Shown here: in pieces, positions 1,241-20,851 of the stretch
How the letters are laid out: every line of letters begins with the position of its first letter
Position numbering within the stretch: the first letter of the stretch is position 1
NCBI GenBank assembly: GCA_021014325.1
Contig: CM037461.1
Coordinates: 11,003,501 to 11,067,500 of the forward strand
Direction: 5' to 3'
DNA from: Plazaster borealis
Lineage: Eukaryota; Echinodermata; Asteroidea; Forcipulatida; Labidiasteridae
Length of the DNA stretch: 64,000 nt
Program-made: the position numbers and the translations under genes
The notes under the pieces: generated by a model
Database searches by the model: none
What the model saw: the letters and a program-made list of their open reading frames with translations, nothing else
Told to the model about the DNA's origin: nothing

Positions 1241-1771
1241 GATATTTATCTTGCTGTGGATGTTGATGGCAAACGACCTCCTGTCAGTTACAATCTGGGC
1301 TGAGCAAGAGGTGGAAAGTAGTTTGTAGTGATGCAGTAGCTGTACCCTTTCAATCACTTATTTTTTTCTTCCTCACCCTGCTTTGATGGTTTTATTTTCC
1401 TTCCAGTTTCTACACTTCAATCATTTCAACACATACCTAAAACAATGTAGCGACTGGATCCCGAATTAGTGTGCGGTAATACAAATACCTCACTATACAT
1501 GTACATGTTCTTATCTCACTTTGTACTCGAGATGTTGAGTGTAAATTTATATATGTTTTGTGGTTCAGCTTAAAGATTACCTCATGAACAGAATGCGTTG
1601 CTCATGAAGATATGATACAGTGTATGTAGGAATGAAAGTTTGTCGACTGGTGGAAGAAAAACGTTTAAAAAAAAATTGTAGAAGATAATGAGTTAAACAA
1701 CTTTGAATTCAAGGAAAACTGTAATTGAAAGATACTGCACAAAATACCCACTATTATGTTCTTTACTCACT

Positions 1772-3345
1772 TACCTTCCCACGGATTTTAACAAGTTCTT
1801 GGGTTTCTATCAGTCCTTGCTCAAAGCTTGTTAACTGCATCATTTCTGCTTCTGTCTCACCAATGCAAGTCTTTTGATCCGCAAAATTCCTTATTCTTAA
1901 GAAAAATGTTTTATATGTACGTAAATAACTTTGCAAAAGGATTGAATCTTTCACATATCAGCTTGGTTTGCGAGGTAAGGTTTTTGGTTCCAGTGCAATT
2001 TTCACTTCAGTGGGTTTCATGAGCCCCATGAAACTTGGTTCAATTTGAAAAACTAAACAGCATAATTTCTATGGCATTTTCATCCATCATGTTTTTGCTT
2101 ATACCGGATGCCCTTGGTAATGCTGGGATAGATTCATCAGCATGTTCAATGTATATGTAAGCCTTAAACTGAATGTATTTCAGCAAGTACATGAAGTAGT
2201 GGAATATCTGGAACACATAGTTATGTTTAGTTGTAAATAATTGATGAGTGTGAAACAAAAGACCATTAAATAGTTCCAGCACTATACTCACAGCATGGCT
2301 TGCAGCTCGCCACACCGTCTCCTGTTGTAAGTGATGAGCTTTGTCTCTGTCAGTCTTGCTGCACGACGGTAGTTCCTAAAGGAGTGGTCCTCTATGTTAA
2401 ACCTCTCAATCGCTTCAGCAATGTATTCCGACAACTTCTTGATGTCTTTTGGTAGTGGTAATGGGTTCTTTGCTTGCTTTGCTGGTAACTCTTTGAGCCA
2501 TGACACGTGACTGTGTTTTCAGTGACCTGCCTGTCGTTCTAAGAGAGGCTTTCCCCGACAATTCTGCCAGTGTCTTTTAAAAACAGAAAGTTTTAACCAT
2601 TCTTGGCAGTTTGGGCAAGGACCGTTATTTGCTTACATCAAATGTACCCCGAGGTCTACGTCCAACAATAAATTCTCCCTTCTTTTCCTCCAACACTTTC
2701 AAATTATGCTGGTGGTCTCCTTTAATGTGCAATAAGTCCAGCATTGTTTTTCTGTTCCTTAACTTTTTCCTCCGTTAGCAGGAGTGTCATCTCCATCTGG
2801 AAACTTTATCTTATGAATTTGTTTGACTTCTGGGCACTTCTTGTGCACAAAAAGAAGATGCTGTGATAAGCCAACGAAAAGCTTTTTGCAGAACAAACAA
2901 CTGTGCCGCAAGTTGTAGACTCTTTCATGTTTTTTCTTTTTGCCGAGTTTTGTTGTTCCTGAAACAAGAATTTTGCGGAAAAAAATCTCCCTGTGGTGAA
3001 TATCTCTTACTATTTCCCATTCAGTGAGATTGTCCATGCTGTCATCAGTAGATGTTTCATAGTCACTCTGTCCATCACCCTAAAAAATGGCTTCATAATC
3101 ACTCTGTCCGGCATCCTCAGAACTTGATTCATAATCAATCTCTCCGGCATCCTCAGAAATGGCTTCATAATCACTCTGTCCGGCATCCTCAGAACTGGCT
3201 TCATAATAACTCTGTCCGGCAGCCTCAGAAATGGCTTCATAATCACTCTGTCCGGCATCCTCAGAACTGGCTTCATAATCCCTCTGTCCGGCATCCTCAG
3301 AAATGGCTTCATAATCACTCTGTCCATCACCCTCAGGAATTGGTC
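1772..3345 (-). pseudogene. Decayed zinc-finger / tyrosine-recombinase-like gene
   Basis: Read on the minus strand, the order is: an acidic repeat (see 3052-3345); a zinc-finger segment with CLFCKKLF and HLLFVHKKC (about 2880); a segment with VLEEKKGEFIVGRRP (about 2660); a second finger CPNCQEWLKLSVFKRHWQNC (about 2580); and LITYNRRRCGELQAM (about 2300) followed by a donor GTGAGT. A later exon carries LTSFEQGLIETQELVKIRGK and ends in a donor GTAAGT near 1771. This order matches an uncharacterised family common in marine invertebrates whose C-terminus has R..AT and GH..Y motifs like tyrosine recombinases (Crypton-like). That is from memory of the family. The frame shifts near 2765 and 2620, and the acidic repeat contains a stop near 3087, so this copy is broken. 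The catalytic end is not visible here. Family assignment is moderate; the zinc fingers are clear. Confidence 0.55.
3052..3345 (-). repeat. 36-bp tandem array encoding an acidic 12-residue repeat
   Basis: About eight units of 36 bp follow one another, with the core GGCTTCATAATCACTCTGTC and CGGCATCCTCAG. Because 36 is a multiple of three, every unit keeps frame. On the minus strand, in the frame that runs into the downstream zinc-finger segment, each unit reads SDYEAISEDAGQ with few changes. In one unit near 3087 the codon pair Ser-Glu has become Phe-stop. A coding origin is likelier than a random satellite because the units differ mainly at interchangeable residues (I/S, Q/R). Confidence 0.7.
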
Positions 3346-10408: not shown

Positions 10409-12473
10409 TTAAGTGGTGTATCGGGTTGGTTTGTGAATGGATCTACCAGATCGCGTTGTGTAGGTGTGATGCAGGGTCTGGTTATGTTTGGTGGTTGCTT
10501 GGACACAGGATGGTCGTTGGTGATGGGTGGTACGGTTATTCTGGATGTCAGGACAAGGGTCATTCAGGCTTGTTGTGAACCGAACTTGTTTAGGCACGCA
10601 TGGTTTGTGTGCCTGGTTTGGTACTTCTCTCGGATGTGATCGGTTGCGCCTGAGTGTGTTGCCATTCGGAGTTCCGACTTCATATGATCTTGGCTGGCTA
10701 CATAGGTTTATCACAGTCCCAGGTATCCATGTGTCAGTCTTGTGGCCCAACATTCTGTCTTTCTGACCGATGTGAAGGGGTGGTTTCTGTTCCCCTGCAT
10801 GCTTATTGTCGTGGTCGGTTTTCATCCTCTGTCTTCTGGCTTCTAGCTGGTCCCGGATTTCCTCTTAATACTGGTTGTCAGCATGTGGGTATCTGCCCGG
10901 TAGGGTCGTGCGTTCTGGTGTGCCGAACATGATTTCTGCCAGAGATGGCAGTTCGGCATCAACAGGAGTAGCACGTAGGTTCAATAGCGCCATGTCAATG
11001 TTCTGCCTGGATTGCAGAGACTTGTTAAGAAGGGCTTTGACTGTTCTGACAGCGCGTTCCACCAGACCATTGGAGCGAGGGTATCTTGGTGAGGATGTAG
11101 TGTGCTTGATACCCCAGGATGTGCACATGTTTTGGTACTGCTTGCCCACAAATTGGGGTCCATTATCCGAAATAATCTCATGTGGTGCTCCAAGCATAAT
11201 GAATGTCTGCGAGGTAATGTTCGCTACAGCTGCACTGGTTGTAGTGCTGAGCTTTTGGACAACAGGGAACTTTGACTGGTAATCCACGATGAGGATATAT
11301 GTTGTTCCATCAATTTCGAACAGGTCGGTGCCAAGTTTTCCATGGTGTGGGCGGGATGGCGTGGGGCTCCAGGGGTTCCTTCAGCTGCTTGGGCTGATTC
11401 TCTTGGCAGAGGTGACATGATTTGACAAGATCATCAATGTGGCGATTGATGTTGGGCCAGTAGACTGTTTCTCTGGCGAGGCGTCTGTTTTTTTTCTATT
11501 CCCATATGGCCTGTGTGGAGTTGACATAAGATGTCGCTCTGAAGTGTAGTTGGGATTGTAACTTGTTTTCCCTTGAAGATTACTCCACTTGATAGTCCCA
11601 ACTCATCTCTGTACGACCAGTAGGGTCTTAGGTCTCTTTTTTTTCTATCCCCATATGGCCTGTGTGGAGTTGACAGAAGATGTCGCTCTGAAGTGTAGTC
11701 GGGATTGTAACTTGTTTTCCCTTGAAGATTACTCCACTTGATAGTCCCAACTCATCTCTGTACGACCAGTAGGGTCTTAGGTCTCTTTTTTTTCTATCCC
11801 CATATGGCCTGTGTGGAGTTGACATAAGATGTCGCTCTGAAGTGTAGTCGGGATTGTAACTTGTTTTCCCTTGAAGATTACTCCACTTGATAGTCCCAAC
11901 TCATCTCTGTACGACCAGTAGGGTCTTAGGTCTCGAGGTAGTTCCCTGATGGTGTCCGGCCATCCTGTGTAGATCACTTGGCTGAGAGCAGAGAGGATAG
12001 GGTCACGGATAGTTTCGTCCTGAAGTGCTGTCTGCTTAGTCTCACCAAAGTGAAGGAGATCGAGTTGTTGGACTTCTGGTCCGTCAGTGACATATAGGCT
12101 ATCCACAAGCTTGTCAAGTGCTATGTCATCAGTGTTGCTGGGGTTGGGCAATCTGCTGAGTGCATCTGATAATATCATGATACATCCAGGCTTGTAGTGG
12201 ACATCAAAATCATAGCCTTGAACCTTGATTAGCAGTCGTTGCAAACGTGGTGGTGCACTGGAAAGCGGCTTTCTCCACATATTCTCCAGGTGTTTGTGGT
12301 CAGTGTGGACTACAAACTCCTTGCCAAATGTGTTGGTGTGGAATCTTGTTATTCCAAAAACAAGGGCAAGGGTCTCACGCTCGATGTTGGAGTAAGATCT
12401 TTGTGCTGAAGATAGAATTTTGGATGCGAATGCCACCGGTTTGTCGTCTTGCAGTAGGCATGCCCCAAGGCCA
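10409..12473 (-). pseudogene. pol: Gypsy pol, RNase H and integrase part
   Basis: On the minus strand this begins inside RNase H just after the insertion at 12479. The RNase H is recognisable by RSYSNIERETLALVFG and FVVHTDHKHLE, followed by FDVHYKPG and DALSR. Then comes the H2C2 integrase finger (HTGHMG .. YWPNINRHIDDLVKSCHLC, about 11400-11830). The catalytic core follows at 10865-11287, with the second Asp in ISDNGPQFVG and the Glu in NGLVERAVRTVK. The C-terminal tail includes a basic segment, LRRNRSHPREV. A 149-bp segment over the finger is present three times and shifts the frame, so integrase cannot be made from this copy. RNase H and the core are otherwise open. Function in the intact family: cDNA synthesis and insertion. 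Confidence 0.85.
11491..11937 (-). repeat. 149-bp tandem triplication inside integrase
   Basis: The words CATATGG and CCTGTGTGGAGTTGACA recur at 11503, 11652 and 11801, a constant period of 149 bp. The units are nearly identical, so the triplication is younger than the rest of the decay. As 149 is not a multiple of three, each extra unit shifts the reading frame. Each unit ends in a T-rich run (CTCTTTTTTTTCTAT), which may have helped slippage or unequal exchange. Confidence 0.85.
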
Positions 12474-12699
12474 AGGCCGTTTCACGACAGCCAGATTTCT
12501 AAAAAGTGTGCCCTCTGTTGACTGAAAAATGCCATGCGACAAAAACAAGGTTTTGCAGCCGGCGACTATTTGATGTTGGCGCGTTCCATTGAGTACGGTC
12601 AATATGCAAATTTTGACCTCGATGATGAGCCTTCTTCCGATTGGTTATTGAGAAGTTATGAATACTAATTTTACCATTAAGCCCTTGTATTTATTATAA

Positions 12700-13600
12700 T
12701 TAGGTAGGGTCAACCTTATTTGTATAATGAGGTTGGTCACATGGATATAATTCTCGGGCATCATGTTTCCGAAAGCGTTGGCTCAGCGTAGATTTCTGCT
12801 CAACAAATACGTGTTTTTGTGCCTTTTGGGATTTTTAAAGAACTTCTGTAAGCTATGCGATGCTTGAGGACAACACAAGCTGGATATTACGTTATAGGTT
12901 AGTGTGGGCAATGGGTATTTATCGAGAACTTCTGTGCTAGATTTTGCTTTTTTTCATGACTAGAAAACGTGCCGTACATGGTAGTACGCATTATCGGTAC
13001 ATGTACATGTACATGTACATTGTGTCCACATGTACACGCATGTATGCATAGCGTGTACACAACTCTGTTCGACATGTAAAAAACAATTGAAATTCAATGC
13101 ACATGTTGATGTTTGTACACGCTGCGCATGGAGAGATAAACAATTAGTTTGGTTTGTGCAGGGGGGGGCGGTGGGGGTTCATAAAATAATAATGTTAATT
13201 TAATGTGTTTTAATATTTAAAAAATGTACATAAAATACACACAATACACATAAAGACATTTTGTAATTGTAGAACGATATTTTATTTATCTTCTGTTTTT
13301 CTGCATTTGTTTGACATTCGCAATGATTATGTTTTCATGAACACTACACACGGTGACGATAAATAACCTTTTCTTTCTGTTTGATTGATATTTTATTTTA
13401 GAACTAAATCTGCTTCTGTTGTTTCCTCTTCTACAACCTAGTATAACTGGTATTACTTTCTATATCAATTTGTTTTGAAATTGACGTTTAATAGGCCTAG
13501 TATCGGTAACACTGGACTGGATACCAATTTGCACTCATTGATGTTGGTTCACAACATGAAAGAAATTTTATATTTCTGTTGTGTGCATGACATTATCCAG
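12700..13600. other. 3' flank of the RAG1-like gene, no coding signal
   Basis: This AT-rich stretch between the gene's stop codon and the transposon end includes a (GTACAT)n microsatellite near 13000-13022 and a poly-G run near 13165. No exon is recognised. Confidence 0.5.
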
Positions 13601-13606
13601 TTAAAT

Positions 13607-13930
13607 TTACTCTTCTGTATTTTTTCTCTTGACAGTGACACAAGCTGCTCGCACTTCTGGAGTAGTTGTTGTGTGGTGGCGTCTCATTACACTCAGCAGC
13701 TTCTGCAGAGGGTCCCGCATCCCATGGACCACCCTTCCTGCTCTGTTAAATTCTGTGTGAACCAATTCTCCACCCTGTTCATTCAGAAGACGGAAGCCAA
13801 CCTTAAACATCCGGAGATGATCTACAGCATGGTCCTCCAACATATGCATTTTGGGGCTGATGTTAATTTTAGGAAAGGACATCCTGAAGCAATGCATGAA
13901 GTCTCTGATGCTGATGTTAGCAGGTAAACA
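13607..13930 (-). CDS. Last exon, catalytic Glu region
   Basis: The exon encodes SFPKINISPKMHMLEDHAVD, then HLRMFKVGFRLLNEQGGELV and HTEFNRAGRVVHGMRDPL, and finally a basic tail ending at TAA (13607-13609). PK.H.LEDH..(13 residues)..EQGGE..H..FN is the signature of the family's C-terminal catalytic block. One of the two Glu residues in EQGGE (13766-13780) is the candidate third catalytic residue. The 5' splice junction is uncertain because two AG candidates exist near 13925 and phase does not settle it. Confidence 0.65.
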   Translation of the reverse strand, partial: CLPANISIRDFMHCFRMSFPKINISPKMHMLEDHAVDHLRMFKVGFRLLNEQGGELVHTEFNRAGRVVHGMRDPLQKLLSVMRRHHTTTTPEVRAACVTVKRKNTEE

Positions 13931-14644
13931 ATAAAACGCAAGTATAATAAGCCTACAAAGATTTTCGGAAAAACACATTTTGTAAGATACATGTATATGT
14001 ATTTTTTGCTAAGATGTACATATTGTTTACTTTACCAATTTGTTGAATTTCATCATCTGTCAAGGGATTTGTGTGATAGATGGCATGATGTACATCGGCG
14101 AACTTGAGAAAAATTTCCTCAAACTTGTTGCCGAATACTGCTGCCTCTCGTTGTAGCCTAGTGACACTAGCAGTTGCAATGGCCTCGGCTTTTGTACTTG
14201 CAATCACCTCACTGGGAACTGATGCCAAATCCTTGATAACGTTTACCTACCGGTGGGAAACAAAACCCAAATCAAACATGTGTATTGAAATATTGGTAAG
14301 ATGAGATGTAGTGTTTATTCCATTATTCCATAATTGGAAACCTTTGCATGTAAGTAAATTTCTGATTTACCTGACAACACTTGTGTACATGGTATCCAAC
14401 ATAGGATATGCCATGGTACGCTTGTCTGCAAATGCTGTGCTTCACAAGTACAATGTCAAGACCACTGGCTACTGGTCCAGTCCCAAATGGAAGACCGATC
14501 TTTGCGACAAGAGTCTCCTATGTGTCGAAGAAAAGGAAAAGCACAATGGTATTAAGTGACTGTACAGAGTAGAAAACAACAGCATTAAAATAGTTAAACT
14601 GCAGGATTTTTAAAACACAGCTTTCAAAACAATTTACTACTAAC

Positions 14645-14990
14645 CAATTCGGTTATCTCATCTCGAAGCTGACCAGTTTCCCTGAATTTCCCTGAATCCG
14701 TTGCCTGGTACATTTGGTTTAACATGTTTGGTTTGCAGCTGTAGAAAGGGAAGCTCATCCTCCAATTCATCGAGGGTTTCTTGTTTCGCTTGTATGTTCT
14801 CTCTCAGGTCTTGCTGTCTCCTAACTTCCGCAGTTACAGCCTGGTCAAAGTTGAATTCCTGGTCGATGTCATCTGCTTCCTCTACTCGCAACCTGAACAA
14901 CGTGACATCAAGGTTGTGGCAGTCAGACTCGAGGAGGTCGTACAGTTTCTTGAACACACCAAGAGAAATGTGTAGACTTGGTAGAATAAC
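14645..14990 (-). CDS. Core exon with LPSLHISLGVF motif and coiled-coil segment
   Basis: The exon starts at acceptor GTTGTAG and reads VILPSLHISLGVFKKLYDLL. A long Glu/Gln-rich, probably coiled-coil segment follows, with EVRRQQDLRENIQAKQETLDEL. In the RAG1 core the motif at this place carries the second catalytic Asp, whereas here the aligned residue would be Ser, if that alignment is right. Near 14690 the word ATTCAGGGAA occurs twice in tandem; the extra 10 bp shifts the frame, and the expected continuation (ETGQLRDEITEL) is found in the shifted frame up to a donor GTTAGT. Broken copy. Confidence 0.6.
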
Positions 14991-15641
14991 CTACAACGGG
15001 TACAATGAAAGTAAGCAGTTAAAGAAAAAAAATATGGAGGGGGGGGGGGTGTGCCAAAAAAAATGAAAAATTATTGTATTAATTTTACTTATGTGGTCAA
15101 TCTCAATTTCCAATCTAGGATTGTCAACAATGCTGAAGGAAACATCCTTAGATCTGTTCCGTCTGCTACCATCTTCAAAACAGCTGAGGTAGTGTTGCCG
15201 AGTTAACTGCAGGGTCCTCTTGGTGCTCAAATCCCTTTCCTCTATGGACTCTTGCATCATTTCCTTGCTGGCCAAGCAGTATATACAACAGTATCGTGCT
15301 TTAAAAAAAAGGAGAAAAAGACAGGTAAACAAATAATATTTCTGTTTGTATTGTGTTTCTTTAAAATATTGAACAGAATATAATTACCTTTTGGTCCATG
15401 GCTGCCATACAACTTTGTCAGTAGCTCATAATCACCAAAGCAGAATAAGCGAATGTTGTGTCCTCTGTCAAGGAGAAAATAGAAGATCAAAAACACAAGA
15501 CAATTTTGAATTTTGAATCGCGACAGTTTTTGAAATCTTAGAGCTGAAACAAATAGTAGTACAACATGTTTGGTTAAAAAAACAGAAAACACAATTTTTT
15601 TTTTTATGAAACACTGCAAACTTAAGTTATTTATTAGACAC

Positions 15642-15887
15642 CTCCATCGTTGATTAGAAAGTGTTGTTATTTGGCTGATTACTTTTGGGAGTGTGCTCTG
15701 TAGATTATGATTAGTGTCACTTCCCTCAAAGCAGGCAAACAACAGTGTTTTGAAGGCTGTTCGGTTTTGGTACGTTGACCGTATTTGATACGCCATTTTG
15801 AAAAAGGTGCCACCCTTGTCGCCCCCAATTTTTACCCATATTTCATTTTGGGGGATGACTCCTCTGTGCCATGTTAGGGAATTACTC
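15642..15887 (-). CDS. Catalytic-core exon with IGGDKGG motif
   Basis: The exon lies between an acceptor CATAG and a weak donor GTGTCT. It reads LTWHRGVIPQNEIWVKIGG, DKGGTFFKMAYQI, then a stretch around LLFACFEGSDTNHNL, and ends TLSNQRW. Asp at 15818-15820 (plus-strand GTC) in GGDKGG is the likely first catalytic acid. The spacing to FEGSDTNHNL, then GDYELL and the CxxC pair in CIYC of the next exons, is similar to the order around the first Asp in the RAG1 core. That comparison is from memory and needs a profile search. No stop or frameshift in this exon. Confidence 0.7.
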
Positions 15888-16799
15888 CTATGAAGAAATA
15901 CAGGTAGCAGATTGGTAGTTAAAATCAATTTATTCTTGAACTTGTTAATCAATAATTTGATTAAAAAATAAATTCAACAAAATAAATAGTTTGTTGTTTA
16001 TTCACCACTGTACATACTTGTCAAGTCGATCTAGGTAATCTAGTATCATTGAACTGAGATCATTGACAAAGACAAAGGGCCCCATTCTGTGTTCAAACCC
16101 AAGAGAGCCACTTGACTTGGTGCTGGGGAATGCAAGCTCTACAAGCTCTCCCTCTATGTAATCTTTGAGGAGATGCTTCTGCTGTGCCCTCATAGATCTT
16201 TCAGATGCAATGGTTGGACCAACATTTCTGTGATAAAAATCAAACAAGTATTTAAATGTGTCTCTTTTAAACAAGCCTTTAGACAAATTCTAATTGTTTT
16301 TAATTTCATTTTTATACAGTACCTGCAAAGTTTTCTCATCTCCTCCCATGCAAGACCGCAGTCCCTCATCATCGCAAGAGATCGATTTGCTGGGGGCATT
16401 GATACTTCTTCTTGGGAACTTGATGGACTTAGCGCACTCTCAGTGTGTTTTGGAGAAGCAGCAGACTGGTTGTTCGTATTTTGTGGGGAGGGAGATTAAA
16501 CTTGCTGAACATGTGCTGGATGAGGAGTAATTGTAATATGTGTTGTAAACTATAAGCACAATTATTTGCAAATTTTTGGTTTAAGTTTAAATAATTATTT
16601 TAAAATTTCCTGTACTAAATCTTGCCATGTTGTAAAGAATTATGATTTGTTTCAGTCTTTATTTTGTAATAGTTAATTCTGTGTAATAATACTTACCCGT
16701 CCACCAGTGTTAAGAACTGCTGCCCTGTTGGATTGCTGCAACTTCAACCAAAACCATCTATCTGTTGCCCTTTCTACCTCATAGTGAATTGGCTCTCAC

Positions 16800-17351
16800 C
16801 TTTTGTGTTTCAAAGCCTCTTCTCGTAGGACCTTAGCAGCATTTCTAATTAAGTGTGATTGTTGTTGATTAGATGATTCACATGTACTGCCTTCGTGTAC
16901 AGCTGTGCTTGCAAAACAGGTAGACTTGCCTCTTGTTGCTGGTGGTGCAGTGCAATATTGACATTCATGGGTGTCTAGTTGATTTAACTCTCCTATTCTG
17001 CTGCACTTGGAGCAAATCAAGTCCAAATTGTTTAGCTGTACATTAATGATACGAGAGCTAAGGGACACTTGTAGGAAGTCGAAACTTACTTTGCACACTG
17101 GACATGGCACCTCAGACAGTTTTTGGAACTGAAAGTATTTAGTTAGACAGCTTACACAAAAATTATGTTCACATGGAGATTGAAGACAAGGTGAAGTAAG
17201 CAAACAAAGGCAGATGGGACATGTAAATAGTGATTGCTCCTCCTCTCGACCAATAATCTCCAAGTACGGGTTTGATCCACTGGAAGTTATTGCACTGCTT
17301 GTGAAAATGTTATTTATATTCTCAGTTGCAACTGGCAAATTTGGGTGGGGT
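16800..17351 (-). CDS. RING finger of the RAG1-like protein
   Basis: The segment contains a canonical C3HC4 RING: CPIC, then CEHNFCVSC, then CPVC. It is followed by a second cysteine/histidine cluster (CSKCSRIGELNQLDTHECQYC pattern: CxxC, 11 residues, HxC, CxxC-like). A RING followed directly by another zinc cluster is the arrangement in RAG1, where the RING has E3 ubiquitin-ligase activity. The exon ends ..EEALKHK with a donor GTGAGA near 16799, and the next exon (16769-16697) continues in phase with TDRWFWLKLQQSNRAAVLN. This stretch is open throughout, with no stop or shift. Confidence 0.85.
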
Positions 17352-17357
17352 GTTGAC

Positions 17358-19802
17358 TAAGAGGGGCCGTTTATGACTAAATGAGCAGTTACAAATATAT
17401 AAGAGCAAACCCATATATATAAGAGCAAACCCATATAAATAAGAGCAAACCAAATAAATATATAAGAGCAAACCCATATATATAAGAGCAAACCCATATA
17501 TATAAGAGCAAACCAATATATATATATCAGCAAACCCATATATATAAGAGCAAACCCACATATATAAGAACAAACCCATATATATAAGAGTACCCTACTC
17601 ATTATATAAGAGCAAACCCATATATAAAAGACGAATACAAAGGATCAAAGACGAAATATATAAAGGACCATTGACAAATATATAAAGGATCAAAAGTCAC
17701 ACAACTACATGTATATTGAACAGCGCCCTCTGTATATTGGACATAGTTTCATATATTGAAGACATGACACCCATAAATATAAAAGCAAAAACGTCTCATA
17801 TAAAGGACGTCAACAGCCGTCAACTGTGGAGGGGCCTGTTAAATCGTTTTCGGCCTGGCTGAAAATTTAGCTATATTATTAGTCTGGCACCTTGTCCCAA
17901 AAAAGTATTTTTCATTTAAAGGTCTCGTACGCCTCCTCCCCACACACACAAGTAGTATACATCGAAGTTGACGTCGCGTCGGCTATTGGGTGAAGCTGCG
18001 CCGAATGTCCACAATTGTTTTCAACAACTGTGTAAGTCATACACAGGACGCTCAAAGGCACCTGCACACCAAAAATGTCAATATTAGTGAATTAAATAAA
18101 AGACGGCTGGAAGATTGTCTTGTTGTATTAGGAGTTTTGTATTATCGTTCGGAGGAGTGGCTTACTACGATAAAGTGCATTAAAGTATTGCGTTGAATTT
18201 TGCATCGGGTGCAAGGACTTCATGAACACTATGAGTATGAGTATGAGAGACTGAGCTATCAACAGATTCAGATGGGAGACTAAATCTGATAGTTGTTCGT
18301 TGTCCGGAATTCTCTAAGCCTAGGGTGAGATAGCAAGTTCTCTACAACGTCTGTGATAGGCACAGACATTTTTTAATTGAAGGGGTATTACAGTTTTAAA
18401 GGATGAGACACAAAAGCACAGCTCGGCCGCCTCTCTGCGGAGGAGTGCTGTACATTATACCATAGAGAAAGGTGTCCTTTCTCTATTATTATACTATCTA
18501 GTAGCTAGTAGTACAGCTGCTATGTAGTAGGATGGATTACCCTATTACCGTGGGGGTTAGGACTTTATTTTCGAGTATAACGAAAAAAAGTGTCCTGTTA
18601 TTATTAATGTTTAAGTATTACTTTCTAATTTGACATAAAAAAATACATCGTTTGTCTTACTAAATTTGTCCACGAAGTCTCTGAAAGTGTGCATGCGCCC
18701 GGAGTGATTCCGGAGTTGAGCCTCCCATTGTCGTGGTCATCAGTTATAATTTGCTTATAAACTATAAGTACATTAAAGGCATCGTACACGTTTGGTGATT
18801 GGAGCCAAAAATTTGACTCCACAAAATGGCCGACCGTGTTTGTTCTCGATGTAAAAGGAAAACCACGCATTTTCGAGACATATTTGTGTGGATCATTGTA
18901 TTCTACTTTTATAACATCTTTCTAACCATGTGCATTTTATAACAAACGGTTGCAAATGCTTTTTATAGACCAACTCGCCCGATCCAAGGCAACGTGTCCC
19001 TTTAAAGTTATTTTGAAGTGAAAATACGTACTTTCGATGTCAATCTTTCTTTAAATATGGAACCGGATCTGGGCACTGATATTTCAATGCACAGAACAAC
19101 ATTTAAGGTAAAAATTTTAATGATGGCACTTTTGACAGACATGGTCAGCGAAAGTTCGCGGGAAAATAGCGTGTTTTTCAAAAAATATTTCCGCAACATT
19201 TCATTTTTTATTACCAGATCGGTAAAGGGCCCTTGGCTATCGATTCACCGTATGAAAGTCGTCTATAGATGACGTATCGACAACGAAAAAGTGAATGATC
19301 TGGTACAATGATAATAATATGAGACTTGACTATACTACATGCAGCGTCCCGCCCGGCCCGTGAGTGCGCTTAGCAAGGTGCCAGACTAAGGCTCAATTTT
19401 CGGCCCGATTTTCGTTCCCAATTTAACAGGCCCATCCACTGTGACGGCTGTTGACGTCCTTCATATGAGACGTTTTTGCTTTTATATTTATGGATGTTCA
19501 GTTATGTCTTCAATATGTGAAACTATGTCCAATATACAGAGGGCGCTGTTCAATATACATTTAGTTGTGTGAGTCTTTGATCCTTTATATATTTTAGGTG
19601 GTCTTTTATATATTTGTATTCGTATATGGGTTTGCTCTTATATATATGGGTTTGCTCTTATATATGGGTTTGCTCTTATATATATGGGTTTGCTCTTATC
19701 TATATATTGGTTTGCTCTTATATATATGGGTTTGCTCTTATATATATGGGTTTGCTCTTATATATTTGTAACTGCTCATTTAGTCATAAACGGCCCCTCA
19801 TA
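17358..19802. mobile_element. Foldback element with long repeat-filled inverted arms
   Basis: The element begins TAAGAGGGGCCGTTTATGAC and ends with the near-perfect reverse complement. It is flanked by the 6-bp word GTTGAC at 17352-17357 and 19803-19808. The inverted arms (17358-17897 and 19372-19802) match base by base over long stretches, including GTTACAAATATATAAGAGC, GAACAGCGCCCTCTGTATA and AACAGGCC. Each arm contains a minisatellite of about 18 bp with core AAGAGCAAACCCATATA. The middle (17900-19370) has no coding frame and includes a MITE. Long arms built of short tandem repeats are typical of foldback elements, such as the TU elements of sea urchins. Mobilised in trans if at all. Confidence 0.85.
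18773..19005 (+). mobile_element. TTAA-flanked MITE inside the foldback element
   Basis: It begins TTAAAGGCA and ends GTCCCTTTAA, with TTAA at both edges. Most of it (CTCCACAAAATGGCCGACC, ATTGTATTCTACTTTT, GACCAACTCGCCCGATCCAA) is repeated at 31088-31305. TTAA target duplication is known for piggyBac and Kolobok transposons. There is no coding capacity at 233 bp. Confidence 0.75.
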
Positions 19803-20187
19803 GTTGACACTTGTCCAATAACCCTTCTGCACTTTCTTGGCCGACCTGGTCCTGAAGAACGTTGAAACAAGTTGCAAAGCTTACAGTTTCCAGATCTCTG
19901 ATGTTTAACCCAGTCAATTAGATTATTACAAGTGCCTTTATATTCCTGCGTCTGTGCCTTGTAATGCCTTATTCTTCTAGCACATTTCTCACAAACTACT
20001 TGAGGATGCTGATCAATGTTATCCAGGTGCTTACGCCAAACACAGCAAAAATTTCTTTGCGATTATCTTTACACAATGTTGGTGTTCTGACGTTAACATT
20101 AGTTGTATTATCTGTTCTCGTTCCACAAACTCTGCACAATTTTGCAAGAACTTGCTTTTGATAATCAAAACTAAGAGCCCTTAACAT
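19803..20187 (-). CDS. N-terminal Cys-rich zinc domain of the RAG1-like protein
   Basis: The first good ATG is at 20187. The protein opens MLRALSFDYQKQVLAKLCRVCG. It continues with KEIFAVFGV, and after a one-base shift near 20040 with NIDQHPQVVCEKCARRI, then IDWVKHQRSGNCKLCN and GPGRPRK. The pattern CxxC, FxVFG, HPxxxCxKC, WxxH, CxxC, basic segment follows the zinc-binding region that precedes the RING in vertebrate RAG1, as I know that family. Its role there is in dimerisation and protein interaction rather than catalysis. The exon runs without an intron into the RING segment once the 17358-19802 insertion is ignored: ..GQVS continues with TPHPNLPVATENI in the same frame. Confidence 0.75.
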
Positions 20188-20249
20188 AATAATGAATCCG
20201 TGTTGACATAATTCAACAAAATACCTGAATACCGAGCTGAATTCCACTG

Positions 20250-20846
20250 TGTGTGTACATCGTTTTAATTTATTCTCCGTGTATTATACTATAGCCCGCT
20301 CGTCTGTGTTTACATGGCCGTAAATGCGTGCGATATGTGGGCGTGTGTGTGTGTGTGAGAGGGCCGGGACCAGCGTGCATAATTCACGTACAATGTATGC
20401 TGTAACCTCGCGAAATGTTCGCGGGCTGACGATCGCTAATTTTAGTTCATCCAAATGTGTGTGTATCTTGAATTTGTGTCATTGCCCACAAACAAAACCA
20501 ACAACAATCCACGACAAAATTGTTTAACTACATAATTCAATTTTAAATCAGCATTTAAAAATCCATTTATTCTTCAAAAAGGAATTTGTCTGGCCCCCGT
20601 CTGTACAACTTTTCCCGTCAATTTTTTTAATAAATAAAGGAATATTAAGGATATAGATAAAACATTATATGCTATCAAACGAACAATTATTTTATTTAAA
20701 GGTGACGACAGACCCTTTGACAGGTGAACGCCATGTTGAAGTCATACAGTAATGTGACGTCACGCGCATTACTGGAGGAGCGAAATAGCAACAACCACAG
20801 ATTGTTCAGTTAATTACGCACGGGCAACGGGGCTGGAACAGCCGTG
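20250..20846. other. 5' flank of the RAG1-like gene
   Basis: This stretch upstream of the ATG at 20187 holds a (GT)n run near 20345 and otherwise no recognised motif. A promoter for the transposase would be expected here; I cannot point to a TATA box with confidence. Confidence 0.4.
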
Positions 20847-20851
20847 AGGCC

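Follow-up and report, generated by a model that had tools for sequence, protein, structure and literature searches.

A RAG1-like transposase gene in a probable Chapaev-type transposon of the sea star Plazaster borealis

The locus

The window analysed here is a stretch of 64,000 nucleotides from the sea star Plazaster borealis (assembly GCA_021014325.1, contig CM037461.1, positions 11,003,501 to 11,067,500). It very probably harbours a degenerate cut-and-paste transposon of the Chapaev type, the only detected protein of which is a transposase with the architecture of RAG1; Chapaev belongs, together with CACTA/EnSpm, Mirage and Transib, to the CMCT clade. As read from the window sequence, the transposase gene occupies positions 20187 to 13607 of the minus strand, which is where an earlier sequence-only reading had located it, but the whole element is larger (Table 1).

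The zinc region of the gene has the motifs LCRVC (CxxC), HPQVVCEKC and WVKHQRSGNCKLC. Hence, all parts of the proposed pattern CxxC/HPxxxCxKC/WxxHxxxxxxCxxC are present, except that the H-to-C gap in WVKHQRSGNCKLC amounts to five and not six residues. The C3HC4 RING with a second zinc cluster directly behind it was found as described, and the core blocks IGGDKGG, GDYE, CIYC, LPSLHISLG and NEQGGE are indeed carried by separate exons. When the window pieces were compared with Pfam, RING and DUF1280 were matched above chance; the other matches were at chance level.

The ends of the element were placed by hand. Its termini on the gene strand read CACGGCTGTTCC... and, inverted, CAAGGCCGTTTC..., one of them starting with CAA instead of CAC, and the element is flanked by a target-site duplication (TSD) of AGGC. 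Excision of the element together with one AGGC copy restores EVDASQKGLGACLLQ in the reverse transcriptase/RNase H frame of a Gypsy element. In the Gypsy pol region, at 11483-11934, three copies of a repeat were also seen, which are 149 bp apart, the later ones showing 97% and 98% identity to the first.

The window copy is dead and unable to make a transposase. Its Chapa/RING exon is interrupted by a nested insert; moreover, there is a frameshift and an in-frame TGA in this exon, a TAA at the start of exon 2, and AT where GT is expected at the donor site of exon 6. Acceptor sites have probably been lost as well. The spliced-aligner model of the window contains one stop and three frameshift marks, to which the reading of the sequence adds more damage. 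The duplication of 6 bp around the nested insert has the length given for IS3EU in the excerpted text of PMC12730594, but the ends of the insert do not match the TAYGG given in the same excerpt.

Table 1. Annotated features of the transposon copy (window positions)
Feature	Position	Strand	Basis or remark
Whole transposon copy, 8375 bp including nested insert; gene on minus strand	12472-20846	-	Ends placed by hand
TSD AGGC, left copy	12468-12471		Excision restores Gypsy frame
TSD AGGC, right copy	20847-20850		Excision restores Gypsy frame
Exon 1, first part: start ATG and Chapa zinc region; one frameshift near 20025	19803-20187	-	Sequence reading, spliced alignment
Chapa zinc region: LCRVC ... 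HPQVVCEKC ... WVKHQRSGNCKLC	19874-20136	-	Sequence; family profile against RAG1 (from residue 100) and against 21wb_A
Nested non-autonomous insert, 2,445 bp; TSD GTTGAC; termini TA(A/T)GAGGGGCCGTTTATGACTAAATGAGCAG; subterminal 20-bp repeats	17358-19802		Sequence
Exon 1, second part: RING, second zinc cluster, as far as TGGR; in-frame TGA 16796-16798	16697-17351	-	Sequence reading, spliced alignment
C3HC4 RING finger	17093-17221	-	Pfam zf-C3HC4, E=1.7e-5, 25.0 bits (cut-off 21)
Second zinc cluster, immediately after RING (CSKC ... HEC)	16952-17014	-	Sequence; family profile aligned to RAG1 through residue 383
Exon 2; 5' limit approximate; TAA 16496-16498	16323-16525	-	Sequence reading, spliced alignment
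Exon 3	16018-16227	-	Spliced alignment
Exon 4: IGGDKGG (putative first catalytic Asp); DUF1280 match	15642-15887	-	Pfam, spliced alignment
Exon 5: GDYE (putative second catalytic Asp)	15388-15464	-	Spliced alignment
Exon 6: CIYC zinc pair; AT in place of the GT splice donor	15089-15298	-	Sequence reading, spliced alignment
Exon 7: LPSLHISLG and coiled coil	14645-14990	-	Spliced alignment
Exon 8	14371-14517	-	Spliced alignment
Exon 9; 3' limit approximate	14034-14246	-	Spliced alignment
Exon 10: KMHMLEDH zinc histidines, NEQGGE (putative catalytic Glu), stop codon; 5' limit approximate	13607-13921	-	Spliced alignment

Relatives in the genome and homologous proteins

With the window exons as tblastn queries, all 20 genomic relatives that were fetched gave matches both to the RING exon and to the second Chapa piece, and at least one core exon follows the RING in 19 of them; the exception, L011, is an internal deletion that has lost the core. 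The first Chapa piece was matched by its query in 10 of the 20. The RING-exon query gave 50 matches (E<=0.001) in the 560-Mb genome, and a part of these may belong to other genes with a RING. Since the layout recurs in the fetched relatives, the arrangement in the window is not a chance one.

A purpose-written spliced aligner was applied to the window and to the 19 relatives other than the deleted L011. Among these 19 models only L017 is free of stops and frameshifts, i.e. the genome search for intact copies that had been suggested revealed one undamaged gene; its splice sites are consistent. Its ten exons encode a protein of 987 aa, identical whether spliced by hand or by the aligner. The full gene structure claimed for the window was thus read from its genomic relatives and not from the dead window copy. 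With the Asterias amurensis protein P0002 as guide, the intron phases of L017 are 0,2,2,2,1,0,0,0,1; this full series was reproduced only in L009, L010 and L019 and the run 2,2,2,1 in 16 of the 19 models, the departures being due to damage, the guide or model error.

Identity reaches 99.7% between L017 and L018 and 99.2-99.6% among L026, L027 and L028, and the flanks differ. Near-identical copies in different surroundings suggest that the family has been mobile recently. L013 and L014 have common flanks and are probably one insertion represented on two unplaced contigs. L009-L012 are also near-identical; three of them lie within about 85 kb on C22 (about 13.53-13.61 Mb) and one on C223.

An automated end scan covered the same 19 loci, L011 being left out. 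Inverted CAC(G/C)G-type ends with exact duplications of 4 bp were found in seven of them: L014 (GGTA), L017 (GAGG), L018 (AGCT), L020 (TATT), L026 (TAAT), L027 (ACCT) and L028 (AGAA). Including the window copy, whose termini were aligned beside those of these seven, the TSD is 4 bp long in all eight readable copies; the family ends can also be written as CACGGCCG-type. Further 4-bp matches reported by the scan in L021, L025, L017 and the window have unlike ends and were set aside. The stretches of L013 and L022 end short of the expected 3' end, as judged by their partners L014 and L020, and the stretch common to L015 and L016 has no recognisable terminal repeat at one side.

Outside the genome of Plazaster, the nearest proteins to the transposase come from one starfish and one brittle star. 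Full-length homologues are P0001 and P0002 from Asterias amurensis as well as P0012 and P0013 from EukProt. The latter carry scpid identifiers, which we take to stand for the calcareous sponge Sycon ciliatum, and are probably sponge proteins. RAG1_imp_bd and DUF1280 are matched in both; the Pfam RING was called in P0012 and, at E<=0.01, not in P0013, which on its own matched RAG1 best in the PDB (2.8e-6) across the Chapa and RING stretch. The protein searches returned 15 proteins in total. RAG1 was not among them, nor was any named protein from a cnidarian or a mollusc, a weak negative because shared 5-residue words were needed. Another of these proteins, P0005 from Holothuria leucospilota, is named zinc finger PHD-type in its source; its core is related and has a Cys-rich stretch within the core insert.

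The N-terminal module

A profile of seven family sequences, five of them with the N-terminus, matched full-length mouse RAG1 at E values of 7.4e-22 and 8.2e-22, ahead of the best non-RAG1 chain (2.8e-8). With 15 homologues in the profile, the match to residues 100-383 of RAG1 reached 5.7e-30, and within this stretch the order of zinc region, RING and second zinc cluster is that of RAG1. The Chapa part alone matched 21wb_A, a RAG1 chain of 137 aa without the RING, at 1.2e-10 and 4.1e-11. The N-terminal likeness to RAG1 claimed from the letters alone was hence recovered by profile matches. Pfam RAG1_imp_bd was matched above its cut-off in L026, P0012 and P0013 and below it in P0010; at E<=1 it was found in two of the seven members of the family alignment, and at 41 places in the Plazaster genome compared with none in 14 control genomes, although some of the 41 belong to other families. 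At the place matching the nonamer-binding domain of RAG1, a TGGRP motif is conserved, in a region where the fold model is poor (pLDDT <50 for residues 342-372).

These results also bear on the possibility that an ordinary RING gene merely lies beside an unrelated transposase. Lone RING matches are common, and in a single-sequence PDB search with the N-terminus of L017, RAG1 came only third (7.6e-5) after TRAF6 and TRIM31; one sequence cannot tell RAG1 from other RING proteins, whereas profiles can. Such a coincidence is practically negligible in view of the joint layout in 19 of the 20 fetched copies, in two Asterias amurensis proteins and in P0012, and of the undamaged gene of L017, whose splice sites are consistent.

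The transposase core

DUF1280 was matched in all seven family members. A core-only profile of five sequences retrieved RAG1 as the seven best of 10 PDB matches (E 0.032-0.24). With eight diverse sequences, the five best of 28 matches were the ProtoRAG RAG1L (0.0023) and four RAG1 entries (0.0051-0.026), followed by mostly coiled-coil matches from 0.23 upwards; all these are whole-sequence E values. In the profile alignments, the Asp of GDYE falls on D708 of RAG1, the CxxC on C727/C730 with identical spacing (+19, +22), the two His of HxxxxH on H937/H942 and the final Glu of EQGGE on residue 962. We take these positions to be catalytic and zinc residues of RAG1, which is partly borne out by titles of E962Q structures. 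The Asp of IGGDKGG is unaligned to RAG1 by sequence; in the predicted fold it sits on the first RNase H strand.

The fold model was made for the homologue P0002 and not for the window copy. Structure comparison ranked RAG1 or the ProtoRAG RAG1L at the top and Transib next. The impression that the core recalls RAG1 was thus strengthened from two sides, sequence profile and predicted fold, and the core did not fall into an unrelated transposase superfamily. Since DUF1280 covers residues 365-549 of P0002 and falls in the part of this protein (372-985) that aligns with RAG1, DUF1280 may be understood as a portion of a RAG1-fold transposase core.

Classification

Ends of the form 5'-CA..TG-3' and TSDs of 2-5 bp characterise Chapaev and the CMCT clade, with 4 bp for Chapaev itself. 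The length of Chapaev TSDs is not given in the excerpt of PMC3630058. Chapaev transposons with a Chapa domain and a RING were described by Kapitonov & Koonin 2015 (PMC4411706, citing Kapitonov & Jurka 2007); the RING follows Chapa in two Chapaev subgroups, and according to that paper neither domain was then encoded in other known transposable elements. Like them, the sea-star family has a Chapa zinc region and then a RING, a core distantly related to Transib and RAG1, and CA..TG termini; compared by description, no difference in kind was found. Furthermore, excerpts of PMC12730594 define the CMCT core as a DDE core in which C(2)C and H(3-4)H lie after the second D and before the E, a pattern seen in the window as CIYC and HMLEDH. 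In the open-licence PMC literature, nothing beyond PMC4411706 was found on Chapaev in starfish, and no title on Chapaev in sponges.

The known precedent named in the sequence-only reading, N-RAG-TP of Aplysia, is likewise a transposable element with a stretch that resembles the N-terminus of RAG1 (excerpt of PMC8355894). It is not the sole one, since the Chapaev elements of PMC4411706 are the closest described kind, and we infer that N-RAG-TP is itself Chapaev-like. Transib, as far as excerpts of PMC8355894 and PMC7204232 describe it, differs by the lack of Chapa and RING and by TSDs of 5 bp.

It could be argued that the element is a genuine RAG-like transposon (RAGL/TransibSU), or that its gene is a degenerate RAG1L, because the core fold and the N-terminal order are as in RAG1. 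RAGL, TransibSU and ProtoRAG elements share the Chapa region and the core fold, and the ProtoRAG RAG1L was the best core-only PDB match, but they have TSDs of 5 bp and a RAG2L gene (PMC4411706), whereas the TSDs here are 4 bp long. In L017 and L026, no open frame >114 aa was found outside the gene span, in a scan that covered neither introns nor split genes and included no RAG2 family search. In addition, the genome has separate RAG1L fragments on C3 that match the RAG1 core family, in one of which (L037) the open frames show Chapa pieces without a RING. Martin et al. 2020 (PMC7204232, in the excerpted part) reported that molluscan RAG1L possesses a RING region and that echinoderm RAG1L lacks one. 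A RAGL origin is therefore very improbable.

Several observations weigh against the assignment to a Chapaev element with a RAG1-type transposase and must be mentioned. The automated scan missed the ends of the window element, one of which starts with CAA, and 12 of the 19 scanned copies (L009, L010, L012, L013, L015, L016, L019, L021-L025) showed no family-like ends with a 4-bp TSD. The name Chapaev was assigned from the termini and TSD, from motifs and from the domains described in the literature. The core-only sequence evidence is modest, the best single stretch having E=0.022, and the whole-model superpositions by Foldseek are loose (RAG1 rows with root-mean-square deviations of 9-16 A and TM-scores to the target of 0.56-0.68). 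RAG1_imp_bd was matched neither in the Chapa pieces of the window, P0001 and P0002 (E<=1) nor in P0007 and P0014 (E<=0.01), so the link to RAG1 rests on the profiles and on other family members. Finally, a tree of the N-terminal part (14 rows) had long branches and only 2 of 11 inner branches well supported, and allows no conclusion.

Other Chapa-bearing loci

In L036 (reverse complement, 1381-3225) and L039 (reverse complement, 380-2403), Chapa is followed in one frame by a P-type transposase, which looks like a Chapa-P fusion. The frame is broken by two stops in L036 and a frameshift in L039; the Pfam scan, which covered L036 of the two, gave RAG1_imp_bd at 5.8e-8, TNP-like_RNaseH_N at 5.7e-10 and Tnp_P_element at 2.3e-5. 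L040 contains on the plus strand (335-2095) an open frame of 587 codons with RAG1_imp_bd (5.8e-6, above the cut-off) and RING (2.6e-8), a stretch resembling the genome's own RAG1L by eye, and no catalytic core in frame. Its single-sequence PDB search gave the RNF4 RING as best match (6.3e-10) and RAG1 next (2.4e-6); it is perhaps a host gene derived from a RAG1-type N-terminus. The Chapa-P fusion and the stand-alone Chapa-RING frame may be newer than the main finding, because PMC4411706 knew in 2015 of no other transposable elements with Chapa and RING; no later paper on the Chapa domain was found in the open-licence PMC literature.

Of the RAG1L fragments on C3 (about 13.32-13.36 Mb), L037 has a GADGMGDIS motif besides its Chapa pieces, and L038 has a CCHC-type tail; no RING was seen in their open frames. 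In L035 (minus strand), Chapa (5.2e-10) heads an open frame of 793 codons rich in Thr/Pro repeats.

Mechanism and origin of the RAG1 N-terminus

Vertebrate RAG1 and the sea-star transposase share the N-terminal zinc region, the RING with second zinc cluster, the RNase H core fold and the CxxC/HxxxxH zinc ligands. The sea-star gene differs in being mobile and multi-exon, with inverted ends and a 4-bp TSD. Its core insert contains a long coiled coil, and only TGGRP is seen where the nonamer-binding domain would sit. The RING region of RAG1 dimerises and has E3 ubiquitin-ligase activity. In the sea-star module of Chapa, RING and zinc cluster, the RING may be an active ligase. The DDE triad of the predicted RAG1/Transib-type RNase H fold would be formed by the D of IGGDKGG, the D of GDYE and the final Glu of EQGGE, and a largely helical insert with the putative CxxC and HxxxxH zinc ligands breaks up the fold. 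The transposase would bind CACGGCTGTT-type ends, followed by Transib/RAG-like cutting and joining with a stagger of 4 bp.

Most likely, RAG1 received its N-terminus and its core together from an ancestor that it shares with Chapaev. With the module already placed on a core of RAG1 fold, we regard such a joint descent as a simpler account than grafting. A late fusion, in which the N-terminus of an N-RAG-TP-like element was grafted onto a Transib core and elements of the sea-star type represent the donor lineage, appears rather unlikely. Excerpts of PMC8355894 put forward such a model, with N-RAG-TP inserted into a Transib, and Transib is described without the N-terminal region in part of PMC7204232. 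But it needs more steps than joint inheritance, and the same module in the same order is already present on a RAG1-fold core, i.e. the donor would itself be a RAG1-type transposase. An exchange between related transposases is also conceivable.

In a more far-reaching scenario, the layout of Chapa, RING, second zinc cluster and RAG-fold core would be an old transposon architecture that pre-dates the split of sponges and echinoderms and is still mobile in this lineage; the V(D)J recombinase would have inherited its N-terminus with the core, and the module would also have passed to a P-type transposase and a stand-alone Chapa-RING gene. We give this complete scenario about even chances. The sea-star family fits the description of Kapitonov & Koonin 2015, and this kind of element was already known. 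Two origins compete for the N-terminus of RAG1, common inheritance with Chapaev (Kapitonov & Koonin 2015) and a late fusion in which an element like N-RAG-TP took part. Because the family offers one undamaged gene, ends that can be read, TSDs and a core matching RAG1 by profile and predicted fold, this question becomes testable at the bench, and the Chapa-RING module is open to study in a transposon setting.

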